37,595 nt of DNA from the NCBI GenBank assembly GCA_036002485.1, contig DASYTI010000243.1, positions 1-37,595 of the forward strand, written 5' to 3'. Origin of the DNA: Candidatus Methylomirabilota bacterium (GTDB taxonomy: Bacteria > Methylomirabilota > Methylomirabilia > Rokubacteriales > CSP1-6). Positions 25,009 through 25,524 of this stretch are shown here, one piece after another; within the stretch, counting starts at the first letter, position 1; the number at the start of each line of letters is the position of its first letter. Under the pieces are notes generated by a model, which was given only the letters and a program-made list of their open reading frames with translations, was not told the origin of the DNA and made no database searches. The position numbers and the translations under genes were made by a program.

Positions 25009-25033
25009 GGGCCCCCCGCCGCGAGCTCGGCGT

Positions 25034-25053
25034 CACCGGCAGAGCTGCCGGTG
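25034..25053 (-). promoter_or_regulatory. Hairpin downstream of in-frame UGA: candidate bacterial SECIS
   Basis: Perfect 8-bp stem CACCGGCA / TGCCGGTG with apical loop GCTC on the minus strand. The loop begins 20 bases after the TGA at 25068-25066 of the CoA-binding protein gene. A short stem-loop with G in the first two loop positions and a UGA-to-loop distance of about 16-37 bases is the published consensus for bacterial SECIS elements. No T-run follows on either strand, which argues against a classic intrinsic terminator. A terminator without a U-tract between two convergent genes is the main alternative. Confidence 0.35.
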
Positions 25054-25065
25054 GTCGACCATGAG

Positions 25066-25476
25066 TCAGCGATCCTGGACGACCTTGATGCCGGCGCGCG
25101 CGAGCGTTTCGGCCACCTCGTCATGCCTGATGCCGAGCTGCATCCAGACGGATTTCGGCTTGGCGGCCAGGATGTCGGAGAGGTGGGGCGGGATGTCTCG
25201 CGAGCGACGGAAGACATTGACCATGTCGACCGGCTCCGGAATCTCCGCGAGCGTGCGGTAGACGGGCTCTCCGAGAATCTCCGTCACCTCCGGGTAGTAG
25301 ACGGGCACGGGGACGATCTCGTAGCCGGCCTCCGCCATGTATTCCGGAACGTAGAAGGCCGGCTGACCGCTCTGCGTCTCCGTCTTGATGCCCAGCACGG
25401 CGATGCGGCGCGTGTCCTTCAAGATCGCCGCCATGCCCTCGCGTGAATCCACCAGGTTCTCCCGCCAGTCGGCCAT
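25066..25476 (-). CDS. YccU-type CoA-binding protein, UGA at the conserved Cys codon (candidate selenoprotein)
   Basis: 136 residues to the first TGA. It is a stand-alone Rossmann-like CoA-binding domain: 'TRRIAVLGIKTETQSGQP' near the start, 'EIVPVPVYYPEVTEILGE', 'VDMVNVFRRSRDIPPHL' and 'KSVWMQLGIRHDEVAE'. Family members end with a conserved 'VV.DRC...E..RL' tail. Here the codon after 'KVVQDR' is TGA, where Cys is expected. The frame continues for ten more codons, reading 'LMVDHRQLCR', with a TGA at 25035-25033. That continuation looks like the normal family tail, so the UGA is either read as selenocysteine or is a recent TGC-to-TGA nonsense change that removes about 11 residues. ATG 25476 is the start. 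If read through, the CDS is 25033-25476. Confidence 0.85.
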   Translation of the reverse strand: MADWRENLVDSREGMAAILKDTRRIAVLGIKTETQSGQPAFYVPEYMAEAGYEIVPVPVYYPEVTEILGEPVYRTLAEIPEPVDMVNVFRRSRDIPPHLSDILAAKPKSVWMQLGIRHDEVAETLARAGIKVVQDR

Positions 25477-25524
25477 GACCCCAGTGTATCAATGTGCTAG
25501 CCTCCTCGCAGGAGGGCCGTGGAC

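Follow-up and report, generated by a model that had tools for sequence, protein, structure and literature searches.

The locus described here raises the question of whether an in-frame UGA close to the 3′ end of a bacterial gene for a CoA-binding protein terminates translation or is decoded as selenocysteine (Sec). The gene lies on the minus strand of a 37,595-nucleotide stretch of Methylomirabilota DNA, referred to below as the window. Its open reading frame begins at position 25476 and ends after 136 codons with TGA (25068–25066); read past this triplet, the frame goes on through ten further codons (25065–25036, LMVDHRQLCR) to a second TGA at 25035–25033. The 147-residue read-through product (25033–25476), in which the UGA is codon 137 (Sec137), matches the YccU-type family CoA_binding_2 (PF13380) over residues 23–142 with an E-value of 2.4e-35 and 121.9 bits, above the curated Pfam cut-off of 22.8, and the homologues of the family continue through the position of the UGA. 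None of the NCBIfam models matches the read-through protein. A sequence-only reading of this DNA had placed the TGA directly after VVQDR and recognised the family tail LMVDHRQL behind it; both points hold, and the coordinates that it gave for the gene are exact.

We are highly confident that the gene encodes a genuine, previously unlisted selenoprotein, a YccU-type CoA-binding protein in which Sec takes the place of the conserved Cys137. The exchange of UGA for Cys codons at this site is directly observed, while the incorporation of Sec itself, for which there are no expression or mass-spectrometry data, is inferred, as is the function of the protein. According to the mechanism that we propose, the mRNA hairpin found directly past the UGA would serve as a bacterial SECIS element and would recruit SelB with Sec-tRNA (the binding of SelB being likewise an inference); the ribosomes would then decode the UGA as Sec, add ten residues and terminate at the next stop codon.

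The state of codon 137 (25066–25068) in the relatives is the first line of evidence. A genome search yielded five genomes of the genus, G000 (the window's own assembly) to G004, at least two of the relatives (G003 and G004) being metagenome assemblies. The codon is TGA in four of them (G000, G001, G003 and G004) and TGC in G002, a near sister of G001, so that the proposal of the sequence-only reading to look for UGA at this codon in other genomes was answered positively in three of them, their proteins sharing 93% (G004), 84–85% (G001) and 71% (G003) identity with that of the window. Among 126 homologous loci, some of them duplicated between collections, we counted 93 TGC, 24 TGT and nine TGA triplets at this position and no other codon, and C137 is invariant in an alignment of 46 sequences. 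The expectation that homologues carry Cys at the site of the UGA is also borne out by the solved structures, since the Klebsiella YccU relative (2duw) reads VVMDRC and the Thermus relative (1iuk) reads VVADRCLMVEHKRL. Outside the genus no TGA at codon 137 was found in the 95 genomes of the phylum that were searched, and the known UGA sequences are thus only four, all from one genus. The protein tree requires two to three changes of the codon-137 state and does not settle their order; the shared hairpin and tail favour a single origin of the UGA in the genus followed by a reversion to Cys in G002.

The sequence behind the UGA is the second line of evidence. Between members of the genus, 26 to 30 of the 30 nucleotides that follow the UGA are identical (87–100%), and this conservation collapses beyond the second stop, where only 12 to 26 of 60 nucleotides agree (20–43%); the second stop itself (25033–25035) is TGA in G000 and G004 and TAA in G001, G002 and G003. 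A conserved tail with loss of conservation past the next stop is the pattern predicted by translation through the UGA and not by a pseudogene. Three of the criteria for a selenoprotein gene are met in this way: the coding sequence is conserved beyond the UGA, the UGA is in frame and aligned with the conserved Cys of the homologues, and UGA-containing homologues exist in other Sec-using organisms (G001 and G004, which have the machinery, and G003, in which SelA, SelB and tRNA-Sec were not seen). A search along the full window for further UGA codons with conserved read-through turned up no second convincing case; the other matches, which are between close genomes, look out of frame or appear to span gene junctions.

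A variant of this explanation, which does not exclude it, is that both forms of the protein are made, mainly the truncated one of 136 residues, with Sec read-through occurring when selenium is available, the UGA thus acting as a selenium-dependent switch. The recoding of UGA competes with termination, and the location of this UGA near the 3′ end means that termination yields a nearly full-length protein. Recoding of 30–40% is reported (PMC4513850). In the AlphaFold2 model of the read-through protein (mean pLDDT 96.6), however, residue 137 is located directly before the last helix (residues 138–146), which is formed by the post-UGA residues, and a stop at the UGA would remove the invariant Cys or Sec together with the whole of this helix, making a useful truncated form unlikely. 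We keep the switch as a minor possibility.

The third line of evidence is the hairpin (CACCGGCA-GCUC-UGCCGGUG, 25053–25034, minus strand), which consists of eight Watson–Crick pairs and begins 12 nt past the UGA. Its apical loop GCUC (25045–25042), with G as its first base, starts 20 nt past the UGA, and no T-run lies behind it, as the sequence-only reading had described. The 3′ arm extends into the actual stop codon. That reading had also judged the hairpin to fit the bacterial SECIS consensus, and we agree: the published model prescribes an apical loop of 3–9 nt, a stem of 4–16 bp, a G as the first or second base of the loop, a distance of 16–37 nt from the UGA and a folding energy no higher than −7.5 kcal/mol (PMC13188914), and we observe a loop of 4 nt, a stem of 7–8 bp, GCUC at 20 nt and energies of −17.6 to −20.5 kcal/mol (over the 42 nt that follow this codon in the four UGA genes). 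No SECIS model in Rfam matches the hairpin, which is expected because bacterial SECIS elements are variable.

In all four UGA genes the hairpin stands in the same register, with a Watson–Crick stem of 7–8 bp, the loop GCUC and an offset of exactly 20 nt. Two stem pairs change on both sides among these genes, from G–C to C–G and from A–U to G–C, whereas the UGC gene of G002 has a C–C mismatch, the only mismatch within the core seven pairs. The covariation is destroyed when the partner strand is slid by one to three columns, but as high a value is reached in 64 of 500 column shuffles; with only four distinct UGA sequences from one genus the signal rests on two pairs, and the covariance analysis suggested at the outset has produced compensatory changes in the same register without beating the shuffles. 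We regard the covariation inferred from these alignments as suggestive and not statistically conclusive. Nor is the hairpin strong evidence when taken alone: in the GC-rich window 7 of the 910 TGA triplets (both strands) precede an 8-bp hairpin with a G in the loop within SECIS distance, which makes such a structure only moderately unusual. It is the conservation of the UGA, the tail and the hairpin across species that goes beyond chance.

The competing explanation named by the sequence-only reading was a recent nonsense mutation, or in our wording also an assembly error, that truncates the protein by 11 residues and is followed by a hairpin resembling a U-less terminator where two genes converge. 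The arrangement of the locus gives it some support, in that the hairpin overlaps the stop codon and that the neighbouring gene, for a DUF72 protein (PF01904; 24106–25008, plus strand, translation start uncertain), is convergent. Stray stops do occur in this family: two Acidobacteria assemblies (L076 and L096) have an isolated stop near residue 49 of the CoA-binding gene, but these stops are unconserved, in contrast to the UGA studied here, and are probably assembly errors or pseudogenes. A single accident, however, does not fit the same TGA in four genomes from separate assemblies at 71–93% protein identity, nor the conservation of the tail up to the next stop codon and not beyond, and a stem of at least 7 bp is present at the same place in just one of 110 distinct Cys homologues. 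This explanation is in our view very improbable. The one exceptional Cys homologue (L141, Gemmatimonadota bin1440) has a 9-bp stem with the loop GCCUGC 19 nt past its TGC, which may represent a terminator or else a relic.

Decoding of the UGA as Sec presupposes the corresponding machinery, and its absence from the genome had been named in advance as an observation that would refute the selenoprotein. We found tRNA-Sec with the anticodon UCA (68–71 bits), SelA (584 bits) and SelB (338–380 bits) in G001, G002 and G004, the three genes being clustered in G001 and G002 and split over two contigs in G004. They were not found in the window's own assembly, which is 95.7% complete, and were not seen in G003 (78% complete). 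The two best SelB matches in G000 proved to be IF2 and LepA, and the below-cut-off tRNA-Sec candidates with scanned loci were ordinary tRNAs. For these three components the refuting observation is literally made; however, the assembly breaks at the site that the cluster occupies in sister genomes. Contig C193 of G000 begins about 2.2 kb beyond selC and aligns from there outward to the sel contig of G001, and for the rest of the roughly 12-kb sel stretch of G001 there is nothing in G000 beyond short stray matches. A further, short DNA match to the sel region, on contig C84, falls in a tatA-like gene with other neighbours and shows no synteny. We read the lack of selC, selA and selB as a gap in the assembly, on the strength of synteny on one side only; that they were truly deleted cannot be ruled out formally.

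The fourth component is present and itself contains the signal in question, as SelD genes with an in-frame UGA occur in all five genomes of the genus. In the SelD gene of G000 the UGA occupies the known Sec position and is followed, at a distance of 21 nt to the loop GAUC, by a perfect 8-bp hairpin; such a gene is meaningful only in an organism that inserts Sec. The SelD and CoA-binding hairpins are alike in their 8 bp, their four-base loop of the form G...C and their distance of 20–21 nt from the UGA. G000 has two SelD-like genes, the UGA-containing one (L149, C51:43396–44334) and an uninterrupted one (C54:11480–12397), the latter in a long open frame of 799 aa, where it may be fused to a further domain; the pair recurs in G004. 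A different mode of read-through, such as insertion of Cys by an unusual tRNA or leaky decoding as Trp, is scarcely credible, for although the position is always Cys elsewhere and the window's own assembly has no tRNA-Sec, three sister genomes have a complete selC–selA–selB set, the SECIS-like hairpin stands at the right distance and SelD of the same genome uses UGA with a similar hairpin.

Formate dehydrogenase is a common selenoprotein. In this genus the formate dehydrogenase-like protein (L185 on contig C103 of G000 and L194 on C21 of G001) has Cys (DHCTRLCHSP) and not Sec, as read from the sequence regions because the Molydop_binding family search is blind to this position; apparently, then, it is not formate dehydrogenase that keeps the Sec trait there.

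With Sec at codon 137 as the preferred reading, the protein appears to be new to the selenoproteome of prokaryotes. Among the 119 families and subfamilies of prokaryotic selenoproteins catalogued in 2026 (PMC13188914, Table 1) there is no CoA-binding PF13380 protein, in line with the statement of the sequence-only reading that the family was not known to be listed, and no PF13380 selenoprotein was met in the other literature searched, although a prior listing, for instance in a supplementary table to Deng et al. 2026, is not excluded. As cited in PMC13188914, this groundwater genome survey reports a Methylomirabilota metagenome-assembled genome with 63 predicted selenoprotein genes and unnamed novel candidates, which makes further unlisted selenoproteins in the phylum likely. 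We read the present case as a new family decoded by the ordinary bacterial Sec route and known to date from a single genus of Rokubacteria (Methylomirabilota), uncultured bacteria of soil and groundwater. The selenoproteome of prokaryotes gains a family by it, and gene prediction that takes UGA for a stop would cut this CoA-binding protein short.

Sec is nearly always a catalytic redox residue, and its presence at the Cys of the YccU/PF13380 proteins points to an active-site role for this Cys. We are inclined to think, with some reservation, that the new family, in which a CoA-binding domain standing alone has Sec in place of its invariant Cys, implies that this Cys is more than structural and reacts chemically, as a redox or nucleophilic residue, with the thiols of coenzyme A. 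YccU/PF13380 is a widespread family of unknown function, and the Sec substitution gives a direct test of the role of the Cys. The binding of CoA by the window protein is itself assumed from the family name and the fold, without an assay. The gene for a cobalamin adenosyltransferase (PF01923; 25519–26136, plus strand) lies divergently across a gap at 25477–25518, and the sequences of relatives suggest the same neighbour in G004, G001, G003 and G013; it may be a hint of a link to B12-dependent acyl-CoA metabolism.

Comparison with known systems places the protein closest to the YccU/TT1466/PH1109 CoA-binding proteins (PF13380; 1iuk, 1iul, 2duw, 2d59, 2d5a), which have the same full-length fold, the C-terminal DRC motif and the tail, but with Cys in the known members where the window protein has UGA. 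The best structural matches to the model are 1iuk and 1iul (Z 23), with an rmsd of 1.3 over 135 residues, a Z-score of 23.4 and 42% identity for 1iuk. The CoA-binding domain of the succinyl-CoA synthetase alpha subunit (E. coli SucD) is related in fold (Z 12–13; 1jkj_A, Z 12.7), the window protein consisting of this domain only, without the phosphohistidine or ligase domains. MAFFT and pairwise alignments put residue 137 on SucD Cys124 (Cys123 in mature numbering); they are weak beyond the last strand, and no significant alignment resulted when the profiles of the two were compared, so the equivalence of the Cys residues rests on the fold and a short motif; the site appears, on this limited basis, to correspond to Cys123-alpha. 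The SucD Cys is mutated in structures 2nu6 to 2nua, and crystals of such mutants were reportedly obtained by Hidber and co-workers in 2007. We take Cys123-alpha to lie close to the bound CoA and its thiol, in which position Sec would be expected to be the more reactive nucleophile or redox group. Our hypothesis, the function being untested, is that Sec137 performs a redox or nucleophilic step toward a CoA, acyl-CoA or CoA-disulfide ligand. Among selenoproteins, SelD of the same genome shares with the CoA-binding gene the UGA in place of Cys and the kind of hairpin, but belongs to a long-known selenoprotein family and has its UGA near the N terminus instead of the C terminus. CoA-disulfide reductase (PMC13188914, Table 1) is likewise a predicted selenoprotein acting on coenzyme A, but belongs to an unrelated family of FAD-dependent oxidoreductases with a UGxP motif.
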